Notes under the pieces: generated by a model | Told to the model about the DNA's origin: nothing | Databases searched by the model: none | The model's input: only the letters and a program-made list of their open reading frames with translations | Shown: positions 1-62,608 of the stretch, piece after piece | Layout of the letters: each line of letters starts with the position of its first letter | Numbering within the stretch: position 1 is the first letter of the stretch | Position numbers and translations under genes: made by a program | From: Sabellastarte sp. h YS-2021 | Lineage: Eukaryota > Annelida > Polychaeta > Sabellida > Sabellidae | Reading direction: 5' to 3' | Length of the DNA: 64,000 nt | NCBI GenBank assembly: GCA_964017235.1 | Contig: OZ024927.1 | Span: 29,779,160-29,843,159, forward strand

Positions 1-1295
1 GATCATGTGTAATGTCCACCCATGATGCTTGGAAAGGCTATATTTACAGTTTTTTATTTTCCGCTAAAAACCGAGATGGCTACCAAAAGTGGTGAAAATT
101 GAAATTTTTCCCTCTTGCATAGGATACCCTTGAACATAACATAACATATGATTTTTATATAGCGCTTATCACTTAGTGTGTCTCTAAGTGCTGTGGGTCA
201 AAGATTCACTAGAAATGGCTCTATCTTTTATGGTTGCCCAGATATTTACAATTTTTTATTTTCAGCTAAAATCCAAGATGGCCTCCAAAAGTGGCGAAAA
301 TTGAAACTTTCATCTTTTGCAGAGGTACCCCTGTACTACCTTGTGGGTCAAAAATTTGCTCGAAATAGCTCTATCCCTTATGCTTTACTTGATATTTACA
401 ATTTTTTATTTTCCGCTAAAATCCAAGATGGGCGCCAAAAGTGGCCAAAATTGAAATTTTTCTATTTTCAATAGAACACCCTTGAACTATCCTGGGTTCA
501 AAAATTCACTCAAAATAACTTTATCTCTCACGGTTTCCCAGATATGTACACTTTTTTATTTTCCACTAAAATCCAAAGAGAGCCGCCATAAGTTGCAAAA
601 ATTGAATTTTTTCCCTTTTCAATGGGATATCCTTGTACTACCCTGTGGGCCAAAAATTCACTCAAAATCATTCTATTTCTTACGGTTCCCAGATATTTAC
701 ACTTTCTTATTTTCTGCTAAAATCTGCTAAGATGACCGCCAAAAGTGGCGAAAATTGAAATTTTTCGCTTTTGCATAAGATACTCTTGTATAGCCCTGTG
801 GGCCAAAAATTTGCTCAAAATGGCTCCGTCTCTTACGGTTTCTGAGATATTTTCAATTTTAAATTTTTAGGTTTTACACAGGATAATCTTCTATTACCCT
901 TTGGGTCGAAAATTTGCCCAAAATCACTCTATGTGTAACGCTTTCTGAGATATAAGCAAATTACTCAAAAGTAGTATTGAAAATAGCCAATAAAGTACCT
1001 AAATGGCTATTACTCGCTTACTTGCAGAGCTATCAGTCCCAAATACAATACCAAGCAAGCTATAGACATAATAATCTTGTATTCCCAATTTTAGTAAAAT
1101 ATCTTGAATCATTTTTCCTTAAATGCACGGAAACCAATTGGTACTGAAAATAGCTGTACTTAGGTATTACTCAGTAAGCAAAAGAGCTACAACAGCTGAA
1201 ATCCCAAGCAAGACACTGACCCAATAATCCTGCGTACCAAATTTTGTGAATATAGCTCTAATACAGTAACTTTTCCTTAAAATGAGCGGTAACGA
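1..1295. repeat. Diverged ~149-bp tandem array (monomer classes A then C), Helitron-satellite family
   Basis: A-class monomers are recognised by a block near ttttttattttccgctaaa followed by a degenerate aagatggccgcc and then 'ctgtgggtcaaaaattc'. The 'gatatttaca' landmark recurs at about 242, 390, 541 and 690, giving a 148-151 bp period. From about 945 the monomers grade into C-class units ('agctattactc'), the last two about 155 bp apart. The joining unit reads 'gagatataagcaaattactc', which matches the gagttataagca core of the other arrays in the window. No terminal hairpin or CTAG end is visible and the array runs off the window start, so this is a partial copy. Open frames here are by-products of the repeat. 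Confidence 0.8.
132..192 (-). mobile_element. Short LINE/SINE 3'-tail insertion inside an array monomer
   Basis: A 61-bp block interrupts an otherwise regular A-class monomer between 'ggataccctt' and 'gtgggtca'. On the minus strand it reads agcgctatataaaaatc and then atgttatgttatgtt, the usual form of a CR1/L2-type 3' tail ending in a short simple repeat. A similar tail is seen at 3500-3540. It also contains a small hairpin (cacttag...ctaagtg). Confidence 0.5.
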
Positions 1296-3957: not shown

Positions 3958-5196
3958 CTAGACCAAGGACGCATCTGTGGCCAGATGCAAGATGTATCCA
4001 CCGGAAAAGGCCAACTAATATAGTTTCAAAGATAAAGAGCATTTTTCCATAATAAGGAAGTTGTAAGCACTTTTAAGTTTGGCTACCTTCATTTGACCTT
4101 GAAACAGGAGCCCAATGTCAAATCTGACTACATCAGAAGATTCGCAGCCCATTATTTCCTAAAGGTTGGTTTCACATTAGAAACCACTAGGACCAAGTAA
4201 TAGGCGAGTTATAAGCATTTGAGTAGGTTATTTGAGAAAAATTGGCTATCTGCAATACTTTTAGAGATAATTAGCATTTACTCATTTTGAGTAGGTGAAT
4301 AATTAGCTACGGGTCTGAAACTGAGAAAAATTGGCTATCTGCAATACTTTTAGAGATAATTAGCATTTACTCATTTTGAGTAGGTGAATAATTAGCTACG
4401 GGTCTGAAACTTCGCCAAGTGAAAGCTCTCCCAAAAGTAGGTGAATGAGTTATTTGAGAAAAATTGGCTATCCGCAATACTTTTACATATAATTCTCATT
4501 TACTCATTTTGAGTAGGTGAGTAATTAGCTATGGGTCTGAAACTTGACCATGTGAAATTGAAAACTTTCATGTTTCAACAGAATACTCTTCTACTACCCT
4601 GTGGGTCCAAAATTCTTTCTCTGACAGTTTCAGAGATATTTGCCATTTTTCATTTTCCGCAAAAATTCAAGATGGCCGCCAAAAGTTGTAAAATTTGAAA
4701 TATTTCATATTGCAACCATATACTCCTGTACTACCCTGTGGGTCAAAAATTCACTCGAAATTGCTCTATCTCTTACGGTTTTCGAGATATTTGCACTTTT
4801 TGTATTTTGTAAAAACATGGTCAAAGAAACACCCACAGCGGCCACCTTGTTTTTGTCCAGATATCCAGAATAATTCCCAAGGAAGCTTTGACCATGATGA
4901 ACATATCCTGCAAATTTGGAAAGTGTACATTGCACGCCCTTTGATATACTGGGGCAGCAAAAGTCCCTAAAAATTTAAATGAAACAGCCGTGGTGGCCAT
5001 CTTGTTTTTGGAAACGAGGCCAAAAAAACTCGGAGGCAAGCTTTTGTACCATTGAACCTATCCTGCAAATTTGAGGCCTCTACCGCTAATACTTTTGGCT
5101 GCAGAGGGGTAACGAGAAATCATCTACACACTGCGGTGGCGGCGGCGTACCCCCACGAAAACCATAGTATCCACCGGATGCATCCAGTGGATACAA
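3958..5196 (-). mobile_element. Complete non-autonomous Helitron-like element with satellite core (copy 1)
   Basis: On the minus strand the element opens TTGTATCCAC at 5196 and forms a 28-bp near-palindrome (5167-5194). A GC-rich CCGCCGCC stretch follows, then D-, A-, C- and B-class tandem monomers, then an inverted copy of the terminus (3993-4004), a perfect 7-bp-stem hairpin (3971-3988, loop tggc) and CTAG (3958-3961) followed by T. Hairpin plus CTRR plus T is the Helitron 3' signature; the asymmetric terminal inverted repeat is typical of Helitron2/Helentron and their HINE derivatives. There is no Rep/helicase ORF, so it is non-autonomous. No target-site duplication is expected or seen. 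Length is about 1.24 kb, close to the other two complete copies. Confidence 0.75.
4234..4411. repeat. Perfect 89-bp tandem duplication within Helitron copy 1
   Basis: The C-class segment beginning gagaaaaattggctatctg is present twice in a row, at 4234-4322 and 4323-4411, with no differences that I can see. Neighbouring monomers are well diverged, so this is a recent duplication inside an old array. Confidence 0.85.
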
Positions 5197-5199
5197 TGA

Positions 5200-5484
5200 A
5201 GCTACAAATAAGTAAAGAATTTACGGCAGTTAACAGAATTTTGAAGAATATTTACTTTATTTAAGGTTTCCTTGATTTGAAGAAAACAAAGAAGGTATTT
5301 TTGAAAAACATTACTTTGGTCACTTTACAAAAACAAGCAATCAGTGCCTGTGAATGGCTGTGTGTCAGCTGACTGTGTGTTTTGAGTTTCAGAGTAGAAG
5401 TGGAAGAAGTAAAGGACACAAAAGTTGTGCCCTGCATATGGTATTCAGAAGTAAAGTACCTAGTTCACTATTAAAGGGTAAAAT
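5200..5484. other. Spacer between satellite blocks
   Basis: About 280 bp of AT-rich sequence follows the Helitron end. I see no motif or repeat in it apart from a short run of 'gtgtgtcagctgactgtgtg'. Confidence 0.4.
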
Positions 5485-5958
5485 GTAGGTGGAAAACATA
5501 TTAAAAAAATACTGTAAATGCAATAGTTTTTGAGTTACAACTGATTTACTCAACAGTGAGAATCTGAAATTAGCTTTTGCTCAGATATACAATGAGTTAA
5601 AGGGCTGCAATTTTACTATGGCATCAATGATCCAGAAGTAGGTGAATAACATATTACTCGACAGTGAAAATCTGAAAGTAGCTATTGTTCTGCTATGCAA
5701 TGAGCTACAGGTCTGCAATTTCACTATGTTTTAGGTGACTGAAAAGTATGTGAATAATATATTTAAAGAAAATACTAGAAATGCAATAGTTTTCAAGCTA
5801 CAACTGATTTACTAAACAGGGAGAACCTGAAAGTAGCTATTGCTCAGGTATGCCATAAGCTACAGGTCTACAATTTCACTATGTTATAGCTGACTCATAA
5901 GTAGTTGAACAACACATTTAAACCAAACTCTCTAAAATCAATAGCCTTCAAGTTACAA

Positions 5959-6098
5959 AGGTCCTCAGGGCCTAGTGGTTAGCAAGTTTGGCATCTAATC
6001 ATAGGCTGTCACCTCTGTGGGTTCGAGTCCCACAAGTGGCAATTCTGTGGACCTGTCCCAATATGACCCTGGCTGTTGAACGGGACGTAAAACCCCAA
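5959..6098 (+). mobile_element. tRNA-derived SINE, family A, with 13-bp target-site duplication
   Basis: The head contains box A tggcctagtgg-like 'gggcctagtggttagc' and a perfect box B 'ggttcgagtcc'. The body ends with 'ctgttgaacgggacgtaaaa' and 'cccc'. Flanking 13-bp direct repeats 'cttcaagttacaa' lie at 5946-5958 and 6099-6111, showing insertion into an existing satellite monomer. Two relatives are at 28665-28817 and 37719-37875. It is a pol III-type retroelement and not a tRNA gene, because the acceptor stem does not close. Confidence 0.85.
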
Positions 6099-6439
6099 CT
6101 TCAAGTTACAACTGATTTACTCGACAGTAAGAACCTGAATGTAGCTATTGCTCTGCTATGCCATGAGCTACATGTCTGCAATTTTATGTTATAGCTGATT
6201 TAAAAGTACATGAATAACATATTTAAACAAAATTCTCTAAATGCAATAGTTTTCAAGATACAACTGATTTACTCAACAGTGAAAACCTCAAAGTAGCTAT
6301 AGCTCAGCTATGTAATGAGCTACAGGTCTGCAATTTACTATGTTATACCTGACCAAAAAGGTAAACCAAATATTCTAAATGCAATAGTTTTCAAGTTACA
6401 ACTGATTTACTCAACAGCAATAATCTGAAAGTACCTATT

Positions 6440-7001
6440 CCAGTTTCAACATGTGCAAGCTGCAGTGTATTCAAAACATACTCGGTAGGATTGTCACAAA
6501 TTGCAATAGATACTCACGGGCTACTCTTATTCTCAAAAAAACTCCATTGGTTGCCAGTTGAATTTTAGTCTATTTTCAAAACTGCCACTTTGGTTAATAA
6601 GTTTCTTCACATTGGTCACCCAAACTATTTCAGCCCTCATCTGTCTATTCGTTGTGGAAGATATGGCACAAGATACAACCGTCCAGATAAAAGGTTCCTG
6701 GAGGTTCCTCAATACTACCCATCTGTACACAAATCAAAAAAACACTTCGGTCACAGTTTTGCTTTTGATGCTCCCACACTTTGGAATGATTTGTCTGAAG
6801 ATGTTCGTTTTGCTCCACTTCTTGCCAGTTTTAGGCAAAAACTAAAATCTTGTCTCTTTGACAAGGCTTTTCCACCTTACCATGTAAACTTGCCGGCGTC
6901 TCCATGGTGTCGACCTGGCTATGTCTATGGAATGATGATTATTGAATTGGACCTGGTGTTGTGCCTTAGAATCAGCACTATAAATGTTAAATAGAATAGA
7001 A
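6440..7001 (+). pseudogene. 3' end of a CR1/L2-like LINE (ORF2 C-terminus)
   Basis: The plus strand reads QCIQNILGRIVTNCNRYSRA, KKLHWLPVEF, then after one stop FKTATLVNKFLHIGHPNYF, HKSKKHFGHSFAFDAPTLWN and ASFRQKLKSCLFDKAFPP. This is the conserved carboxy-terminal region that follows the thumb in many metazoan LINE ORF2 proteins. The fragment ends 'gccttagaatcagcactata' and then a taga(a)ta microsatellite, the 3' terminus. It is 5'-truncated and inserted into the C-class satellite array. One in-frame stop follows LHWLPVEF, so it is inactive. Confidence 0.85.
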
Positions 7002-7340
7002 TATAACCCCAAAGTATGTGAACAACATATTTAATAGCTATTGCTCAGCCATGCGATGAGCTACAGGTCTGCAATTTTACTATGTTATAGGTGACCCAAA
7101 AGTAGCTGAATAACATATTTATACCAAATTCTCTACATGCAACAGTTTTCAAGTTACCAGTGATTTTACTCATTATGGAAGGTACTGCAAAGTCAGAAAG
7201 TAGCTATTACTCACTTAGCTATTGGTATGGATACCCAAGTTACTCACCATGTTTTAGCTATGGAAAAAGTAGCTGAATAACATACTTAAACAAAATGCTC
7301 TAAATGCAATACTTTTTCATGTTATAAGTGACTTATTGCA

Positions 7341-17915: not shown

Positions 17916-19227
17916 CTAGACCTACACATCGGAGAACCGATGCAAATTTGTATCCACTGGAAAGGCAACTCACCAAAGCCATTGAACCATCGTTTGACCT
18001 TGAAGGAGGGGCCAAAGGTCAAATCTGACATCAGAAGATTCCCAGCCCATGATATCCTATAAGTTGGTTTCACATTGCAAACCTCTAGGATCAATAATAA
18101 ACAAGTTATAAGCACTTTAACGTTTGGCTGTCCTCGTTTGACCTTGAAGGAGGGGGTCCAAGGTAAAATCTGACCACACCAAAAGATTCCCAGCCCCTGT
18201 TTTCCTACAAGTTGGTTTCACAGCAAACCTCTAGGACCAATAATAAGCAAGTTATAAGCACTTTTAAGTTTGGCTGTCTTCATTTGACCTTGAAGGAGGG
18301 GTCCAAGGTCAAATCTGACCAAATCAAAAGATTCCCAGCCCATGATTTCATATAAGTTGCTTTCATATTGTAAACCTCTAGGACCAATAATAAGCAAGTT
18401 ATAAGCACTTTTAAGTTTAGCTGTCCTCATTTGACCTTGAAGGAGGGGTCCAAGACCAAATGTGACCACATCAGAAGATTCCCAGTCCATGATTTCCTAT
18501 AAGTTGGTTTCACATTGCAAACCTCTAGGACTAATAATAAGTGAGTTATAAGCACTTTTAACTTTGGCTATTCTTGTTTGACCTTGCAGGAAGCTCCCAA
18601 GATCAAATCTGACCACATCAAAAGATTCCAAGCCCATGATTTCCTATAAGTTGGTTTCACATTGCAAACCTCTAGGGCCAATAATAAGCAAGTTATAAGC
18701 ACTTTTAGACTTTGGCTATCCTCGTTTGACCTTGAAGGAAGGGCCCAAGATCAAATCTAACCACATCAGAAGATTCGCAACACATGATTTCCTATAGGTT
18801 GGTTTCACATTGCAAACCTGTAAGACCAATAATAAGGGAGATATAGGCACTTTTAAAGTCCGACGTGTGGGTTACTTTGGCACTCCATGGATGACCTTGA
18901 ATTAAGAGCTTCAAGGTCAAATGTCTGCAAGGTTGTAGAGGACATGCATATCTGTTATACATATCACCTATGAAGAGATTCAACCTTCTACCTATGAGAA
19001 ACAGCCAGTAGAAAAATGTAGATAATTTTCAAAAAAATCCCCGCGGCCAACTTGTTTTTCAGAATGAGGCTAATTTCAGTCCCCTAGAAGCGTACCCCCC
19101 AATGAAAATAGCTGGTGTAGTTTTCCTCTGTGAGCGTTAACACCGAAAATCTCTCTACGTGAGGGGGTGGGGGTGGGGTAGCGAACGCTAAACCAATGTA
19201 TCCACTGGATGCCTCTGGTGGATACAA
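17916..19227 (-). mobile_element. Complete non-autonomous Helitron-like element with B-class satellite core (copy 2)
   Basis: The minus-strand 5' end is TTGTATCCAC at 19227 inside a near-palindrome (19198-19225), followed by the same GC-rich subterminal zone as copies 1 and 4. The core is six or more B-class monomers; the 'caaggtcaaatctgacc' landmark falls at 18016, 18161, 18306, 18453, 18600 and 18748, a period of 145-148 bp. The 3' end has an inverted copy of the terminus (17949-17960), a hairpin with a 6-bp stem (17927-17942, loop agaa) and CTAG (17916-17919) followed by T. There is no coding capacity. Length is 1.31 kb. Confidence 0.78.
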
Positions 19228-19740
19228 TAAAATTAACCAATTTTATTGCATAAAAACGTTCTTACATAATCCCACCAGATGCTTGAATGTAGCCCTGAGG
19301 TCCATGGTGGGTAGACTTCTGAGGGCCATGAAGTGACAGGAGAGTTCTTAAGCCTGTACAGATACAAATATGCATTGAAAAATATGTAATACTACAAACA
19401 ACTGTGATATATTACATATAGTTAAAATTATGTTAATCTATCAAGTACTGAAGAAAACATAAAGTAGTTATAGTAAAGTAACTGATAGGTACTCACCCAC
19501 TAATGAAAGCAGCATGCTGTACCTTCAAACTACATTAACATCATATCTCTGAACAGCGTCATCATATCTGTACAATTGTGTAGGGGTCAAATGTCCAGCT
19601 TGAATTAGAACTCCAATGGTAAGAGTGCAGCTGTCCCTCAAGCCATCCATCTGTACTTTGAAATCATATCCATAATCATAGTCCTAATCCAGTCCAGTCC
19701 AACTCCACAAATCCTAAAAATAAAGAGTTGAATAAATTAT
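19228..19740 (-). other. 3' non-coding region of DIRS copy B and short spacer
   Basis: Downstream of the recombinase on the minus strand is non-coding sequence including gctgctttcattagtgggtg, which looks like the 3' region of the DIRS element. The outer terminus was not identified. Around 19230-19285 there is partial similarity to 17615-17690 on the far side of Helitron copy 2. Confidence 0.35.
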
Positions 19741-48094: not shown

Positions 48095-50808
48095 GAGACA
48101 CTTTTATGTTTGACTGCAATACTTTCAAAGATAAAAGACATTTACTCATTTTAGTAGCTATTATTCTGCCATCCAAAGAGCTATAGGCTACAGTTCTGCA
48201 ACTTCTCTATGTGGTAGAGCATGAAAAAGTAGGTGAAGGACTTATTTTGAAGAAATTGCCCATGTGCAATACTTTTAAAGATAAAAGGTATTTACTCATT
48301 TCAGTAGCTGTTACTCAACTATGCAAAGAGCTACAGTTCTGCAACTTCACTATGTGGTAGATCACCCAAAAAGTAGGTGAAGGACTTATTTTGAAGAAAT
48401 TGCCCATGTGCAATACTTTTAAAGATAAAAGATATTTACTCATTTCAGTAGCTGTTACTCAACTATGCAAAGAGCTACAGTTCTGCAATTTCACTATGTG
48501 GTAGATCACATAAAAGTAGGTGAATGACTTATTTAAAAGAACTTGCTATCTGCATTACTTTTAGAGATAAAGACATTTACTCATTTTAGCAGGTAGGATT
48601 CAGCTATGCAAAGAGCCATAGACATGCAACTTCACTATGTGGTAGATCACCCAAAAGGTGAATGAGTAATTCAGAAGAAATTGCATACCTGAAATACTTT
48701 TAGAGATAAAAGACATTTACTCATTTTAGTAGCTATTACACAGCTATGCAAAGAGCTACAGTTGTGCAACTTCACTATGTGGTACATCACCCAAAAGTAG
48801 GTGAATGACTTATTTAAAAGAACTTGGTATCTGCATTACTTTTAGAGATAAAGACATTTACTCATTTTAGCAGGTAGGACTCAGCTATGCAAAGAGCTAT
48901 AGACATGCAACTTCACTATGTGGTAGATCACCCAAAAGTAGGTGAATGAGCTTATTTAGAAGATATTGCATATCTGTAATAATTTCAGAGATAAAAGACA
49001 TTTGCTCATTTTAGTAGCTATTAATCAGCTATCCAAAGAGCTACAGTTTTGCAACCTCGCCATGTGGTAGATCACCCAAAAGTAGGTGAATGACTTATTT
49101 TGAAGAAATGGCGTATTAGCAATACTTTTAGAGATAAAAGACATTTACTCATTTTAGCAGCTATGACTCAGCTATACAAAGAGCTATAGACCTGAAACTT
49201 CACTATATGGTAGATCAGCCAAAAGTAGGTGAATGACTTATTTAGAAGAAATAGCATATCTGTAATACTTTAAGAGATAAAAGACATTTGCTCATATTAG
49301 TAGCTATTACTCAGCTATCCAAAGAACTACAGTTCTGCAACTTCACCATGTGGTAGATCACCCAAAAGTAGGTGAATGACTTATTTTGAAGAAATAACGT
49401 ATCAGCAATACTTTTAGAGATAAAAGACATTTACTTATTTTAGTAACTATGACTCAGCTATGCAAAGAGCTATAGATCTACAACTTTACCATGTCGTGGA
49501 TCACCCTAAAGTAGTTGAATGATTTACTTATTGCCGAAATTGCTCTATCTTGCACTGTTACCAAGATAATTAATTTTTTTTCTTCTTTTTATGCAGAAAT
49601 TCAATATGGCCGGCAAAAATATTGCAGATGACTCACTGTATACCCTGCGGGTCAAAAATTTCATCAAAATGGCTGTATCTCGCACTGTTTCCAAGATAAA
49701 TGCATTTTACGCAGAAACTCAATATGGTCATCAAAAATGGCGGGAAAGCTATTTTTGGCAAAAAGTTGCTGATAACTCTACACATACCCTATGGGTCAAA
49801 ATTTTTGTCAAACTCGCTCTATCTCACACCATTTGCAAGATAAACAGGTTTTTGCATTTTCCATCGCTGGAAAATTCAGAAAATAGCTATTACTCACTTA
49901 GCTATTGAGGTACACCTGTAAAACAGGTACCATCTTGTAGGTACAGAGAAAGTAGCTGAACAATAAATCTTTGCGAAATGCTCTAAATGCACTGGTTTTG
50001 GAGTTATAAGCAATTTACTCAAATTAGCTACTAGCCCCATTACTCAATTAGCTATTAACCTAGATCTGCTAAAGCAACAAAAATATTAAGTACATAAGAA
50101 ACTAATCCAAAAATAGTGGAGCAGTCCTTAGTATGGTTTGTGAGATAAATGATATTTTCCATTTCCACCACAATTCATGATGGCGGCCAAAATTCGAAAA
50201 AGTCTAAACATTTCAGAGGCCCTAGTGGAGTAGTCCTTAGTACACTGGGGGTCAAAAATTTGCCTGAAATCTCTATCTCTTGCGGTTTTCAAAATAACTG
50301 GCATTTTCCATTTGTGCCAAAATTCAAGATGGCGGCTGAATATTTCAGACAAGTCTAAATTTTTGAGAGGTCCTACAGGAGTAGTCCTTAGTGCCCTAAG
50401 GATATCATATTTTATAGCAAACCTCCATACTGAATACTTTTGAACTTAAAAAGTAACTTTCTCAGTGGCAAAATGTCAAAGTAGCTATTACTCAGTTGGC
50501 ATTATAGTTAGAGCTCTGAGAATGCGTCATGACACAGAACATGAAAAAGTAGATAAACAACACATTTGACAAAAAAACTCTAAATTTAATACTTTTGAAG
50601 TTACAAGCGATTTACTCATTAGCAAAATAACAAAGCAGCTATTACTCAGTTAGCTGTGGAGCTTATGATAGTTGTGAAAATTTGCCATGGCACAGAACAT
50701 CAAGAAGTAGCTGAACAATATATTTGATAAAAACCTATAAATGGAATACTCTTGAAGTTACAAGTGAGTTACTCATTGACAAAATGAGTATAGGTCTGGT
50801 GGATACAA
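48095..50808 (-). mobile_element. Large Helitron-like satellite element (copy 3), 3' end not found
   Basis: The minus-strand 5' terminus TTGTATCCACCAG is at 50808, shared with copies 1, 2 and 4. The body alternates C'- and A-class monomers (49590-50790) and then a clean C-class array (48100-49560). In that array the 'ataaaag' landmark falls at 48131, 48281, 48425, 48567, 48706, 48848, 48991, 49134, 49277 and 49420, a period settling at 142-143 bp. Several A-class units contain 'atggcggc' (about 50178 and 50330). The GC-rich subterminal zone of the other copies is missing, and I find no hairpin or CTAG near 48095. Confidence 0.7.
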
Positions 50809-51855
50809 TAAGCTTAAAGTAGTAAATGATATGTTATTAAAAACTCAATGAATAACATATTTGAAAAGATTGATTTAACTGCAAAACGTTTAAAGATATT
50901 TGACATTTACTTCGTCTGTTTTTTAGCTACAAATGAGAAAATAGCTATTACTGATTTATTATATGCAATGGAGCTCCAAACTATGTATCATCTTATAGCT
51001 AAGGACAAAATAGCTGAACAACATATTTTAGGAAAATACTCTAACTGCTAATAGTTTTGTAGTTACAAAGGCTTTACTCAATAGTAAGAATGTTATAGTA
51101 GCTATTACCCAGCTATTCAATGTGCAACAGGTCTGAAACTTTACTATGCGACAGCTTATCAAAAACTAAATGAATAACATATTTGAAAAGATTTGGCTAA
51201 CTTTAATACTTTTTAAGATATTTGACATTTACTTCTGTCATTATTTTGCTACAAATAAGAAAATAGCTATTACTCACTTATGGCATGCAATAGAACTCCA
51301 AACTATATGCCATCTTATAGCTAAGGACAAAGTAGCTGAACACTATATTTTAGGAAAATACTCTAACTGCAATAGTTTTGGAGTTACAAAGGCTTTACTC
51401 AATGGTAAGAATTTCAAAGTAGCTATTTCTCAGCTATACAATGTGCAATAGATCTAAAACTTCTTACCATGTGATAGCTTACCAAAAAGTAGATGAACAA
51501 CATATTTGAAAAGATTAGCCTAACTTTAATACTTTTTAAGATATTTAACATTTACCTCTGTTATTATTTTGCTAAAAATAACAAAATAGATATTACTCAC
51601 TTATGGCAGACTATGGAACTTCAAACTATATGTCATCTTATAGTTAAGGACAAACTAGCTGAACAAGATATTTTAGGAAAATACTCTAACTGCAATAGTT
51701 TTGGAGTTACAATGGATTTACTCAACAGTCAAAATTTCAAAGTAGCTATTACTCAGCTATCCAATGTGCAATAGATCTAAAACTTCTTACCATGTGATAG
51801 CTTACCAAAAAGTAGATGGATAACAGATTTCCCTAACTTTAATACCTTTGAAGAT
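50809..51855. repeat. Higher-order 322-323-bp tandem repeat (three units)
   Basis: Units begin with tgaataacatatttgaaaag-like sequence at about 50848, 51170 and 51493. Each unit comprises two different half-units of about 160 bp, both carrying 'agctattactca' phrases of the C class. It follows directly on the 5' terminus of copy 3, so it belongs to a neighbouring family member. No terminus of its own was found. Confidence 0.8.
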
Positions 51856-51989
51856 ATGACCAATGTGACTGTGATGTCATAACCTTCATGATAACATAAA
51901 CCCACAGTTGGGCTTACATGGCATGACCAATGTGACTGTGATGTCATAACCTTCATGATAACATAAACCCACAGTTGGGCTTACATGGC
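51856..51989. repeat. Perfect 67-bp tandem duplication
   Basis: The segment starting 'atgaccaatgtgactgtgat' is repeated immediately at 51923 with no visible difference. It contains a CRE-like 'tgatgtcat'. It is a very recent duplication at the edge of the satellite block. Confidence 0.9.
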
Positions 51990-52355
51990 ATTTGTGGCTT
52001 TCCTGTAAAACACATAACTCCAGTTTAAATGTGGCCCTGCTGTTGAACCAGCCTTTACACAAATTGTACCATATCTTTGTAATGAATACAAAGAAAAAAG
52101 TTTGATCTCATGATATTTGAAAAATTAGAATAAAATAAAATGTTGGGGGGCAAGAAAAATACGCCAACAACTCAAAATCTTAAAATGAATTATTATTGAA
52201 TTACACAGCCCATTGAAGTAAATGATTTAAAGAAACTAAAACTTCCAGCCTAAGAATCAATGTAGCTAAAAGAAGACTATATTCTGAACATTTAAAGTTT
52301 AATAAAAACTCGTTACGCAATGACTGCTGTCAAAAAAATGAAAAATTATCTATAA
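51990..52355. other. AT-rich spacer
   Basis: No recognisable feature. Confidence 0.4.
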
Positions 52356-52357
52356 AA

Positions 52358-53608
52358 CTAGACCTAGCGCATGGGCCCAAGGTCAAATCTGAGAATATCA
52401 GAAGATTCCCAGTCCATGACTTCCCATAGGTTGATTTCACATTGCAAACCTCTAGGACCAATAACAAGCAATTTATAAGCACTTTTAAGGTTGAGTATCC
52501 TGGTTTAACCTTGAAGGAGGGGTCCAAGATAAAATCTGACCACATCAAAAGATTCCCAGCCCATGATTTCCTATATGTTGGTTTTACATTGCAAGCCTCT
52601 AGGACCAATAATAAGCGAGTTATAAGCACTTTTAAGTTTGAGTATCCTCGTTTGACATTGAAGGAGGGGTCCAAGGTCAAATCTGACCACATCAGAAGAT
52701 TCCCAGCCCATGATTTCCTATAAATTGGTTTCACATTGCAAGCCATTAGGACCAATAATAAGTGAGTTATAAGCACTTTCAAGTTTTGCTATTCTTGTTT
52801 CACATTGAATGAGGGGCCAAAGGTCAAGTCTGAGCACATCAGAAGATTCCCAGCCCATGATTTCCTATAAGTTGGTTTCACATTGCAAGCCTCTAGGACC
52901 AATAATATTCGAGTTATAAGCAGTTTTAAGTTTTGCCATTCTCGTTTGACCTTGAAGGAGGGGCCCAAGGTCAAATTTGACCACATCAGAAGATTCCCAG
53001 CCCATGATTTCCTACAACTTATTTTCACATTGCAAACCTCTAGGATCAATAATAAGCAAGTTATAAGCACTTTTTTGGAGGGACATTGACGGAGGGGTCC
53101 AAGGTCAAAGCTGATCACATCAGAAGATTCCCAGCCCAACATTTCCTATAGGTTGGCTTCACATACCAAGCCTCTAGGACCAATAATAAGCGAGTTATAA
53201 GCACTTTTTATGACAGCCAAAGAAACTCCCGTGGTGCCCATCTTGTTTTTCAAAATGAGGCCAAAAATATTCCCAGTCAAGATTTTGTAATGATGAACAT
53301 ATTCTGCGAATTTGAGATCTCTACCTATAATACCCTTTGCTCTAGAGCGCCACCAAAACTCCTTGCTGAAAGTAAAAAAAAAAACGCCTGTGGCGGCTAT
53401 CTTGTTTTTCAAAATGAGGCCCAAAATATTCCCAGGCAAGATTTTATGGTTATGAATATATCCTGCAAATTTGAGAAGGCTCGCTATAATATTTTTTTCG
53501 TTAGAGCAGTAACAGTAAAATCTCTCTACACACTGCGGCGGAGGCGGCGGCAGCGCCGTAACAAAGCAAAATCCATAGTATTCACTGGATGCTATCCGGT
53601 GGATACAA
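52358..53608 (-). mobile_element. Non-autonomous Helitron-like element with 147-bp satellite core (copy 4)
   Basis: The minus-strand 5' end is TTGTATCCAC (53608) in a near-palindrome, then the GC-rich zone and two D-class units with 'cttgtttttcaaaatgaggc'. The core is B-class: the 'aaggtcaaatctg' landmark falls at 52380, 52527, 52674, 52821 and 52968, exactly 147 bp apart, then at 53102 (134 bp, a small deletion). The 3' end keeps CTAG (52358-52361) followed by T, but half of the hairpin is lost: only 'atgcgctaggtctag' remains on the minus strand. 147 is a multiple of three, which explains the long open frames here; they are not genes. Confidence 0.75.
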
Positions 53609-59461: not shown

Positions 59462-60633
59462 ATGAAGAGAGAGAAAGGAGGAAACAGAGGAAAGAAGAAG
59501 ATGGATGAGAGGCAAGAGGAGTGGGAGAAGGAAGGTGGAGAGTTGGAGGAGATGACAGAGGAAAGGACAGAGGAGGGTACAGAACAGAGAGAAGAAAGGA
59601 TAGAGGAGAGAGAGGAAGGCTTACAAGCTACTAAGGAAGCTTGGGTAGAAGATGAGAGGTGTGAGGAAGATTAAGAATGCCACTCAGCAGCCAAGAGAGC
59701 CAGGGTTTGTGCTACATTCACTGACAGCCAAGAAATTGCCATTGTTGAGTTTGTGAAGGAGCACCCAGAGATTTATGACAAGGAGCATGCATGTTTCCAC
59801 GACAGACATAGGAAGGAGGCTCTCTGGGCAGAAATTTCTGCAGAACTGAAGCTCCAGCCCTTTGATGTCAGAAGGTGGTTTGAGTCACAGAGAACTCACT
59901 ATGGAAAGCTCTCCAAGCTACAGTCTGGCCATGCCCCAAGGGAGATGACCAAGAGACAGTCTTGGGTCTACAGCAGATGGGTTTCCTTAAGACCCACATC
60001 AGATGCAAGGGGGTCAACAGAAGTTCTGGGTTCGAGGCCAGTCCCAACACCAGCAGGCATGAAGAATCGCGTGGCTCTACTACTGATACAGAACATCTCG
60101 AGTCCAGTGTCCTGAGGGAGAGTGCAAGTCAACCAATTATTACATCTACACCAGTTTCCACAGATTCAAAGATACTTGAACACTTCGACCAGATGAGGAC
60201 ACTGATCTCAGGTTTCCTGCAGCAGAAGTCAGACAGGCAGCCCTTCTTTGACTATGTGGCATCAGAGGCTGAAAAGATGACCCAAGAGGAATTTGAGGAC
60301 CTCAAGGGCAGAATTTTTAGAGACATTGAAGAAGTAAAGAACACTCATAGACGTCAAGTTCTACCCAAGAGATCAGCCACTATTACCAGAGAGTCACAGA
60401 GGGTCGGGATACTGCCAACAACCACTCAACAGGCATCTAGTTCCACCCAGGCTGCAGCGGGCAGCAGTTCCAGGAGTTATGTCTACTATACACCCAGCGC
60501 CATTGGCTTTGGAAACCCTCCATCAGTGCTGACATTACAGGACGAGGGCAGCAGACACAACTTAAGTGGAATACTAAGCCAACTACCAGATCTAACAACA
60601 CAGATCACTGAGCAGCCTCAGCAGCAGCAGTAG
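59462..60633 (+). pseudogene. Harbinger Myb/MADF-like DNA-binding protein
   Basis: In PIF/Harbinger elements this partner binds the element ends and helps bring the transposase into the nucleus. The start at 59462 opens an acidic, Glu- and Arg-rich N-terminus. The same frame has a TAA at 59672-59674 and continues as AKRARVCATFTDSQEIAIVE then FVKEHPEIYDKEHACFHDRH, LWAEISAELKL and RRWFESQRTHYGKLSKL, the MADF/SANT-like helical domain. A one-base frameshift near 59985 moves into the frame carrying ILEHFDQMRTLISGFLQQKS and MTQEEFEDLKGRIFRDIEEV and a Ser- and Gln-rich tail ending at 60633. With one stop and one shift it cannot make the full protein unless repaired by splicing. Confidence 0.8.
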
Positions 60634-61079
60634 CAACAGCAGCAGCTCTACACCATCACCACCACAGCACCGCCTCAACAGCAGCAGCCTCCTTAGTAGC
60701 CAGCCAGTCCGGGTGGGTCTCGTAACCCCCATAGGCCCTTTTGAGGGCCGCCCAAATCTTCCAAAAACAATTATTTAGCTGCAAGTTGATCAAATTCCCC
60801 TCCGAAAACATAACAGTTCAGTACAAATACTTATCACAAAACAAAACAAAAAAAAAAGCCCAAAACCCACACCACCCCAAACATGAAACAAATAAACCAC
60901 AAATAAACCATGGTAATACACATAACAAAAGAAGGCCACATAGAAAAAAAATAGATAAATGAACTCCCAATATGGCCAATAATCTGGCCATTTGTAGTTT
61001 AAAATCCATGGGATAGCTTTAATTCTGTAATGAAAAAGTCCAACACTGACACCATCCCTAGAGGTAAAAAAATTATGTT

Positions 61080-61205
61080 ATGACATGGCCACAAACCAAC
61101 AAACAGATAAAAACCCGATAGCAAACATAACCTCCAACCAACAAACTGACAAACGAATTTGCAAACATAACTCCCCACAACAAACAGACAGATAAACCAT
61201 ACTGT
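61080..61205 (-). repeat. Inverted minisatellite units inside the Harbinger element
   Basis: On the minus strand two to three units read gttatgtttgc, then gtttgtcagtttgttggttg. They are related to the array at 61385-61645 but in the opposite orientation, with about 180 bp between. Confidence 0.7.
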
Positions 61206-61384
61206 AAACAGAACCACACGGGTGGTTATTTTTTGTAAATTTCCCTGAAGTAGAATAAAAAAAATTTAATTTTGAGATTTGCAATAAAGGAAAACCTTTC
61301 AGTTTCAGTTATTTCTCCAGAATAAAAACCAAATGTGAAACTAGATTTCCAAATATATGCCATATTTATTCCATTTACCAAGTT

Positions 61385-61645
61385 ATGTTTGGCATGGGGT
61401 TTGTCTGTCTGTTTTTGTTTGTGGGAATTATGTTTTGCATTGGGTTTGTCTGTTTGTTGGTTGGGTGAATTATGTTTTGCATTGGGTTTGTCTGTTGGTT
61501 GGGTGAATTATGTTGGGCATTGGGTTTGTCTGTTTGTTGGTTGGGTGAATTATGTTGGGCATTGGGTTTGTCTGTTTGTTGGTAGGGTGAATTATGTTGG
61601 GCCTTGGGTTTGTCTGTTTGTTGGTTGGGTGAATCATGTTTATTG
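61385..61645 (+). repeat. 42-bp minisatellite, about six units
   Basis: 'gaattatgtt' marks units at 61425, 61467, 61505, 61547, 61589 and 61631 (as gaatcatg), so spacing is 42, 38, 42, 42, 42. Each carries 'gggtttgtctgtttgttggt'. Because 42 is a multiple of three, open frames persist on both strands; these are not genes. It lies between the two Harbinger genes. Confidence 0.92.
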
Positions 61646-61757
61646 ATGATTGGGTTATTTGGAACAAGCACAGCTGATTAATTGTTTTTGGAATATTTGG
61701 TAGTCCTGAAAAGGACTGGTTACTAGTCCTGAAAAGGACTGGTTACTGCAGTAGTAG

Positions 61758-62608
61758 TTATATTCTGTCATCTTGCCAGGCCACTGCTCCCTCATTATTG
61801 AAGTAGTCCTTGAGGTAATCCCTCAGTCTTTTGGCTTCTCTGGCAGGGTTTCTGTCACGACCACCATCAGCAGCACCACCAATCAACCGACCAGTACCAG
61901 GCACATCATCATCATCATCATCACCACCAGGCTGTTGAGCACCATGTTGACCTTGATACTGGCTTCTCAGTATGTTGTGCAAAACCACACAGGTCATGAC
62001 CACATCCCTGACTGTTTCTAGGGGTAGTTCAATAGTGGTCATCATGACTCTTAATCTTGAGACTAGGATGCCAAAAGCGTTCTCAACAACTCTCCTGCCC
62101 CTTGATATTCTGTAGTTGGCAATCCTTTCCTCTCTGGTTAACATCCTTCTGCCATAGGGTTTCATCAGCCAGGTGTCATCCTGGATGGCCCTGCAGACCT
62201 GTGGTAGAAACTTGGAAATGGTGGATCTGCCAACCCTGAACTGACAGGATAATGATGTGTATGACTCTCCAGTGGCCAGATATCTGATGGTGAGGGCTAA
62301 CTTTTCCCCAACACTGATTGGAGCTCTGTAGTTGGTGGCCTGCCTGGCTAGACGTGGTTCCAGTCTGGTCTTTATCATTTCAAAGAATTCAGGGGTCATC
62401 CTCATGAAATTGGTGAATCCTGGAATGTCTGTGGCATACAGTTCAGCCATAATGTTGTGGTAGGCCCCCTCTCCCCTCTCTGTAGTAGCCATGGCCTGAT
62501 CCACATGTTGTGCCTTCTTCTAGGTGTCTGTATGGCTGGTGGTGGTGGTGGTGGGGCTGCTTGTGGTGGTTGCTGTGGTCGATGTAGAAATAGCAAATAC
62601 ATGAGCAT
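61758..62608 (-). pseudogene. PIF/Harbinger DDE transposase with internal deletion
   Basis: The nuclease would cut and rejoin the element at 3-bp targets. The N-terminus (62608-62470, one frame) reads RRRHNMWIRPWLLQRGERG. After a frameshift, the main frame (62504-61758) gives EGAYHNIMAELYATDIPGFT, an HTH region YTSLSCQFRVGRSTISKFL, then VCRAIQ joined directly to DDTWLMKPYGRR, NYRISRGRRVVENAFGILVS, and a C-terminus with a poly-Asp run encoded by a cat repeat (61904-61924). About 130 residues between VCRAIQ and DDTWLMKPY are missing compared with the family. That segment holds the first two catalytic Asp residues; only the last acidic residue (VVEN) remains. It is convergent with the Myb-like gene. 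Confidence 0.88.

Follow-up and report, generated by a model that had tools for sequence, protein, structure and literature searches.

Oysters and other bivalves have Helitron-type elements that contain satellite repeats, according to the available text of the reports (PMC11136912, PMC8268682, PMC5139131). For the HINEs of the oyster Crassostrea gigas (Vojvoda Zeljko et al. 2020; PMC7492417), the accessible sections describe one monomer class per element, exceptionally two, and propose recombination, a junction fragment or fill-in as the origin of double arrays. The accessible part of a 2025 review mentions differing array types within single oyster elements (PMC12628747). In the open-licence literature, surveyed mostly as listings, no element with three or four satellite classes was found. 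Against this background, the view taken in the initial annotation of the locus described here, that several monomer classes in one lineage are unusual, holds in moderated form.

The window, a 64,000-nucleotide stretch of Sabellastarte sp. DNA, contains a complete non-coding rolling-circle-type element at positions 3958-5196 on the minus strand (5' end 5196, 3' end 3958), referred to here as HINE-like. Its extent was assigned from ends common to other genome copies and from the empty sites of three other copies. The element strand starts with TTGTATCCACCGG and finishes with GGTCTAG, and its layout is 5' TT with a palindromic subTIR, a GGC-rich tract, two D, two A, three C and one B units, an inverted subTIR, a hairpin, and CTAG at the 3' end. 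The 5' end (5167-5196, minus strand; TTGTATCCACTGGATGCATCCGGTGGATAC) consists of TT and the subTIR joined to its own inverted copy, forming a palindrome (91% complementary) with a 12-pair stem that includes one G-T pair and is favored by folding. A short GGC/GCC-rich tract (5131-5150, minus strand), recognized from the sequence and from the right ends of other copies, occupies the position of the microsatellite in published HINEs. Monomer calls placed two D units of ~155 bp at 4826-5111, two A units at 4575-4822, three C units at 4215-4553, and one B unit of ~147 bp at 4050-4194, all on the plus strand; the repeat search additionally detected a perfect 89-bp duplication (4233-4411) in the C block. 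On the 3' side (minus strand), inverted-repeat comparison identified the 5' subTIR in inverted form at 3994-4005, 36 bp from the 3' end. Folding and paired-column analysis identified a hairpin, GCATCTG-loop-CAGATGC, at 3971-3988 (GCATCTGGCCACAGATGC), 13 bp from the 3' end and followed by GGTCTAG. The terminal CTAG (3958-3961, minus strand) is followed by TT on the element strand, as the plus-strand AA in 31 of 33 loci shows.

Both limits agreed with other copies in the genome: a left end CTAGACC... was recognized in 33 of 50 loci, and a right end ...GGATACAA in 43 of 50. The right-terminal motif matched four times in the window, compared with 0.00 expected from 100 shuffles, and BLAST of the element against the rest of the window gave E values down to 3e-50. 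The complete element with both termini and the order B-C-A-D, as initially annotated, was thus present in full. The annotation had counted three satellite classes; the series itself was confirmed, and the number of classes is four (B, C, A, and D).

Folding of the termini as single-stranded DNA favored both structures. The 5' palindrome had a z of -5.5, a stability that none of 200 shuffles reached, and the 3' end a z of -2.1, reached by 8 of 200. In a second element of the window, at 17916, the values were -3.2 at the 5' palindrome (3 of 200) and -2.8 at the 3' end (2 of 200). The hairpin stem was examined in an alignment of 33 left ends, 25 of them distinct; of its 175 cells, 93.1% were paired, compared with 87.8% in shuffles and 15-29% when the stem was slid. 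The percentage paired, the both-sided cells, and the covariation score were each reached by 0 of 500 shuffles. One hairpin pair showed a U-A/G-C exchange between subfamilies (8 cells). The number of pairs with both-sided change (one) and the number of further pair types showed no excess over shuffles, being reached by 493 and 338 of 500, respectively.

We searched the genome (1.786 Gb, 647 contigs) with the element and with positions 17916-19230. The first search gave 12,732 candidates at an initial look and the second 14,449; 40 of each were scored, and 30 and 20, respectively, were taken as loci. Because the ranking of scored copies used similarity to the entire query, copies with other interiors would score lower. 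When the left 88 bp served as query, 1,150 candidates were obtained, and all 40 that were scored were 97-100% identical. Left ends were recognized in 16 of the 30 loci from the first search and 17 of the 20 from the second, and right ends in 27 and 16, respectively; many of the missing left ends lay beyond the 1.5-kb flank examined, and that of L002 is known from coordinates. Both termini were in view in 26 of the 50 loci at a spacing of 1239-2696 bp. They therefore do recur as pairs within 1-4 kb, the spacing whose absence elsewhere the initial annotation had named as evidence against its proposal. Copies of the family were present on many contigs.

Three architectures were found: L-B1-Cn-A2-D2-R, L-C'5-Cn-A2-D2-R, and L'-Bn-D1-R'. 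C followed by two A and two D units was observed in 30 of 30 first-search loci, which had been selected by similarity to that series. A single B adjoined the left end in seven of them (L001, L003, L004, L006, L009, L010, and L024), and these carried 3 to about 8 C units, one of which, in L009, was called C155. Nine further first-search loci had the left end in view; seven contained five diverged C155 units followed by 3-7 C, L026 contained two C155 units, and L027 none. The left end was out of view in the other 14 of the 30. The 20 second-search loci contained 7-17 B units, some of these arrays being cut by the locus edge, followed by one D. In loci of both searches, the satellite blocks had one orientation relative to the ends. 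Regarding the initially proposed fixed order B-C-A-D, the C-A-D part was retained in all loci selected for it, and the B part was not, as B was replaced by a diverged C array or expanded without C or A.

Related sequences were also found elsewhere in the window. Monomer calls and the genome search identified the third architecture at 17916-19227 (minus strand), consisting of L', seven B units (two partial), a D fragment, and R'. A B-D element at 52358-53608 (minus strand) has lost part of the hairpin and the 3' subTIR, and a C/A composite at 48111-50808 (minus strand) has a right terminus only (CTGGTGGATACAA at 50796), as judged from monomer calls and termini. Monomer calls revealed no recognized termini for an A-class array (15-962, plus strand) or for a diverged C-class (C155) array interrupted by other repeats (5478-7331, plus strand). 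All five had initially been listed as separate arrays; this description fits the last two, whereas the first two are elements with the same kind of ends and the composite keeps its right end. A further diverged C-class array with a 323-bp higher-order period was found by repeat search and monomer calls at 50845-51857 (plus strand); the period, which corresponds to two C155-like units, was seen in 50848-51991, followed by a perfect 67-bp duplication (51856-51991). Within the C155 array, a tRNA-derived SINE-like insertion (5955-6105) and a LINE 3' fragment (6440-7000) were recognized by eye. ARAGORN detected no tRNA in the window, and the frame of the LINE-like fragment had no Pfam match. Positions 59753-62504 contain a MADF domain (59753-60112, plus strand) and a DDE_Tnp_4 domain (61761-62504, minus strand) with a 42-bp minisatellite (61383-61641) between them, a remnant that is presumably Harbinger-like.

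Next, insertion sites were analyzed by comparing the joined flanks of 26 copies with 77 loci and the window. Three of them (L009, L010, and L017) matched continuous paralogous sequence, and for the other 23 no empty site was found in this set. The L010 empty site was gapless across 120 bp, that of L009 had a 3-nt gap in the left flank, and that of L017, which lies inside a B array, had a single extra A that may belong to the element. Apart from this one ambiguous A, no target-site duplication was present at the three paralogous empty sites. In the left flank, A was found at -1 in 29 of 29 loci and AA in 27 of 29. In the right flank, T was found at +1 in 35 of 43 loci (p 6e-11 versus local T content) and A at +3 in 42 of 43, with +2 variable; the A at +3 was host sequence in all three empty sites. 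On the element strand, the target is approximately T-N-A^TTT, and among the 22 loci for which both flanks were scored, 16 had an A^T target. T residues at the boundaries, where Helentrons are reported to have T strings as a trait outside their structural definition, comprise the 5' TT inside the element and the TT(T) after CTAG on the 3' side, where one T may be the element's own, as L017 suggests. HINE insertion also targets another tandem array, one in which GGTCAAGGTCA-like phrases abound; it was observed in the flanks of L010 and in L040, L046, L067, and L036.

We then compared the monomer classes by local alignment of their consensuses against 4000 dinucleotide shuffles; the figures given are the shuffles scoring at least as high. 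The C variants (133, 143, and 155 bp) constitute one family (C-C155, 0/4000). A and C share ~45 bp when the element's A consensus is used (C-A, 2/4000; C155-A, 0/4000), and the A unit of the window array gave no signal against C or C155 (2038 and 1079 of 4000). No convincing relation was detected between B and the other classes (C, 2728; C155, 2956; A, 3174; window A, 2187; C143, 304; D, 680 of 4000), nor between D and the other classes on the same strand (C-D, 2750; C155-D, 1579; A-D, 250; A-D2, 2029 of 4000). The inverted comparison gave 3/4000 for A-D2 and 61/4000 for A-D, and a first run with 300 shuffles gave 6 for B against inverted C155 and 1 for C against inverted A, the latter a long gapped alignment.

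A 14-bp box, CAAGATGGCCGCCA, is shared by A units (plus strand) and D units (minus strand), that is, in opposite orientation (window positions 4668, 4991, 53391, and others). With up to three mismatches, it matched 15 times in the window compared with 2.35 expected, and 14 of the 15 matches lay within A (plus) or D (minus) units. Its reverse was the most conserved stretch in five aligned D units; in an alignment of 12 A units of the window, the box was less conserved than a different stretch, CCTGTGGGTCAAAA. The core of the box, AAGATGGC, is a putative YY1-like site; no paper linking YY1 to satellite-bearing Helitron insertions was found in the open-licence literature. Beyond this box, B and D have no convincing relation to the other classes, so the common phrase noted initially does not show one ancestor. 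The initially suggested single ~145-bp ancestor of all classes was not supported for B or D by the shuffle-tested alignments, and kinship was found among the C variants and, over ~45 bp, between A and C.

The growth of the arrays was examined through the nearest relatives of their units. Among 219 C units, 41 had the nearest relative in their own locus, versus 7.6 expected from numbers alone, with the kinship of loci ignored. For the 178 with the nearest relative in another locus, this relative was at the same rank in 50 cases. Between-locus identity at equal rank was 0.935 beside A, followed by 0.915, 0.903, 0.898, 0.867 (rank 5), and 0.877 (rank 6). We read this as a C tract that is inherited and also gains units locally, the A-proximal units appearing the most stable. 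For B units of the third architecture, the nearest relative was in the same locus for 42 of 161 versus 8.9 expected, kinship again ignored, without a clear gradient. The data do not support the idea that the single B unit was captured recently from the architecture with B arrays, as this unit is 81% like those B units, which are 89% alike among themselves; its similarity to them climbs from ~0.80 to 0.833 towards the right end of the arrays.

The family very probably consists of non-autonomous transposons of a Helentron-like (HINE) type, with satellite monomer blocks arranged in series between the ends. As expected for HINEs, subTIRs of 12-13 bp are located near the 5' end (2 nt) and subterminally at the 3' side (36 bp from the end), and a palindrome lies outside the 3' subTIR at 13 bp, within the range of ~8-35 bp from the end, with a stem that survives the subfamily exchange. 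Insertion was into a T-rich site with TT preferred (after CTAG in 31 of 33 loci) and without target-site duplication (three empty sites). Asymmetrical TIRs and palindromes at both ends, by which the available text of PMC4067079 defines Helitron2, were also found. Against the Helentron placement stand the 3' CTAG and the A^T preference, which are Helitron- or proto-Helentron-like. An alternative is that the element belongs, as a non-autonomous member, to the canonical Helitrons (5' TC, 3' CTRR, A^T target) and lies outside the Helentron group. This would account for the CTAG, which fits CTRR, for the hairpin 13 bp from the 3' end, and for the A on one side (35/43) and T on the other (29/29) on the element strand. 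This origin is nevertheless unlikely, because the 5' end is TTGTATCC, with TT and not TC, and insertion was not always between A and T (16 of 22 loci). Moreover, the inverted subTIRs and the 5' palindrome seen here are absent from the canonical description in the accessible part of PMC4067079. Even less probable is a cut-and-paste MITE (Pearl-like) carrying internal satellites. Short inverted repeats do lie near the ends, and according to the accessible text of PMC7492417, similar-looking elements were originally filed as MITEs; however, the repeats here are placed asymmetrically, at 2 bp from one end and 36 bp from the other, only one end has a second hairpin external to its subTIR, and the three empty sites lack a duplication beyond one ambiguous A. 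That unrelated satellites lie side by side by chance, as the dissimilarity of B and D to the other classes might suggest, is scarcely credible, since the same series between the same ends recurs on many contigs. The Helitron-like carrier of the initial annotation was thus supported by defined ends, subTIRs, hairpin, and paired termini under a narrower name, for which we use HINE-like rather than proven HINE because no autonomous Helentron with matching ends was found around the Rep loci.

For such a HINE-like element, a Rep-helicase encoded elsewhere would nick the 5' TT end, and rolling-circle copying of the strand would proceed until the hairpin and CTAG were reached. The copied strand would then be joined to a T-rich target, with the satellite blocks travelling as cargo. 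Recombination or fill-in among elements whose ends are alike may have brought the blocks together; afterwards, units of the C block (or, in the third architecture, of the B block) would be gained and lost locally, and the remainder would be inherited as a unit.

The PF14214 profile matched at 24 places in this genome and at none in 14 control genomes. Four of the copies (L054, L056, L057, and L059) are Rep-type Helentron copies that are 98.9-99.4% alike, and L057 contains an open frame of 2245 residues. L057 and its in-frame continuation L075 encode Helitron_like_N, a PIF1 helicase, and a C-terminal Exo_endo_phos match (24.0 bits, E 4e-5; curated cut-off 24.5), the domain set expected of a Helentron. 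Judged by sequence, these four copies and L075 are a young autonomous Helentron lineage. Its 3' boundary, where L075 and L077 stop matching, is CTTGTT(A/C)T(G/T)TTT, and no HINE terminus was found at this boundary or 3 kb upstream, where the 5' end was perhaps not reached. The surroundings of all 24 Rep places, about 1.5 kb on either side, contained a single weak HINE left-end candidate (L068, CAAGACC, with no hairpin), which was dismissed. A B array beside a Rep fragment in L071 is probably a separate insertion, as it is absent from the 98% twin L070. L063 and L064 each contain a Rep-bearing segment of 2.66 kb; the two segments are 95% identical, have sharp edges, and may represent a shorter Helitron-like element. 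Neither in the young lineage nor in the surroundings of the 24 Rep loci was an autonomous element found with ends matching the HINE-like family. The oyster HINEs are likewise described without an identified autonomous partner in the accessible text of PMC7492417.

These results indicate that the HINE-like family is real and has unusually many satellite classes, and that apparently separate satellites of one genome are modules of one mobile family. Architectures with common ends and differing blocks make the published conjecture of a recombination origin for multi-array HINEs testable, and a Rep-helicase lineage as candidate partner is suggested by the CTAG end together with the pattern of the flanks. 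More speculatively, this could be an animal family in which subTIRs and palindromes of HINE type are combined with ends of the Helitron/proto-Helentron kind (5' TT, 3' CTAG, ~T-N-A^TTT), and its mobility would depend on a Rep-helicase distinct from the endonuclease-bearing Helentron found in this genome. The family would be an assembly line in which several satellite classes are strung together and arrays grow in only one block per lineage; we regard this as a tentative possibility.

Satellite carriers are known from oysters and flies, and the element here is mainly a richer version of them. As in Cg_HINE, according to the accessible description in PMC7492417, a 5' subTIR with its inverted copy, a microsatellite-like tract, and a 3' subTIR with a palindrome enclose central tandem repeats, there mostly of 140-180 bp. 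Repeats and ends are in constant orientation in both; also shared are a T-rich target without target-site duplication and no identified autonomous partner. Unlike Cg_HINE, compared by its description, the elements here contain three to four classes in series, in architectures sharing modules, and have a CTAG 3' end with the flank pattern T-N-A^TTT (PMC7492417, same sections). Pearl/CvA, DTC84, and MgE of bivalves, again compared by description, are similar in that conserved ends flank a short array of ~160-bp repeats in the available text of PMC7492417 and PMC5139131; this text gives each of them a single central repeat type. The accessible part of Thomas et al. (2014; PMC4067079) places the subTIRs of the mite HINE-Mo 2-4 nt from the 5' end (2 nt here) and the palindrome of HINE-Mo/DINE-1 ~8-35 bp from the 3' end (13 bp here), and describes non-coding elements with tandem repeats in some copies. 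The 3' subTIR, by contrast, lies 36 bp from the end here and about 38-60 bp in the mite, and the Culex and Drosophila Helentrons of that text differ in having variable T strings at their boundaries. In the same text, proto-Helentron-Pi of Phytophthora infestans has the 5' TT, the 3' CTAG, and integration between A and T without target-site duplication seen here, but it is an autonomous ~14-kb oomycete element with typical Helitron structure.
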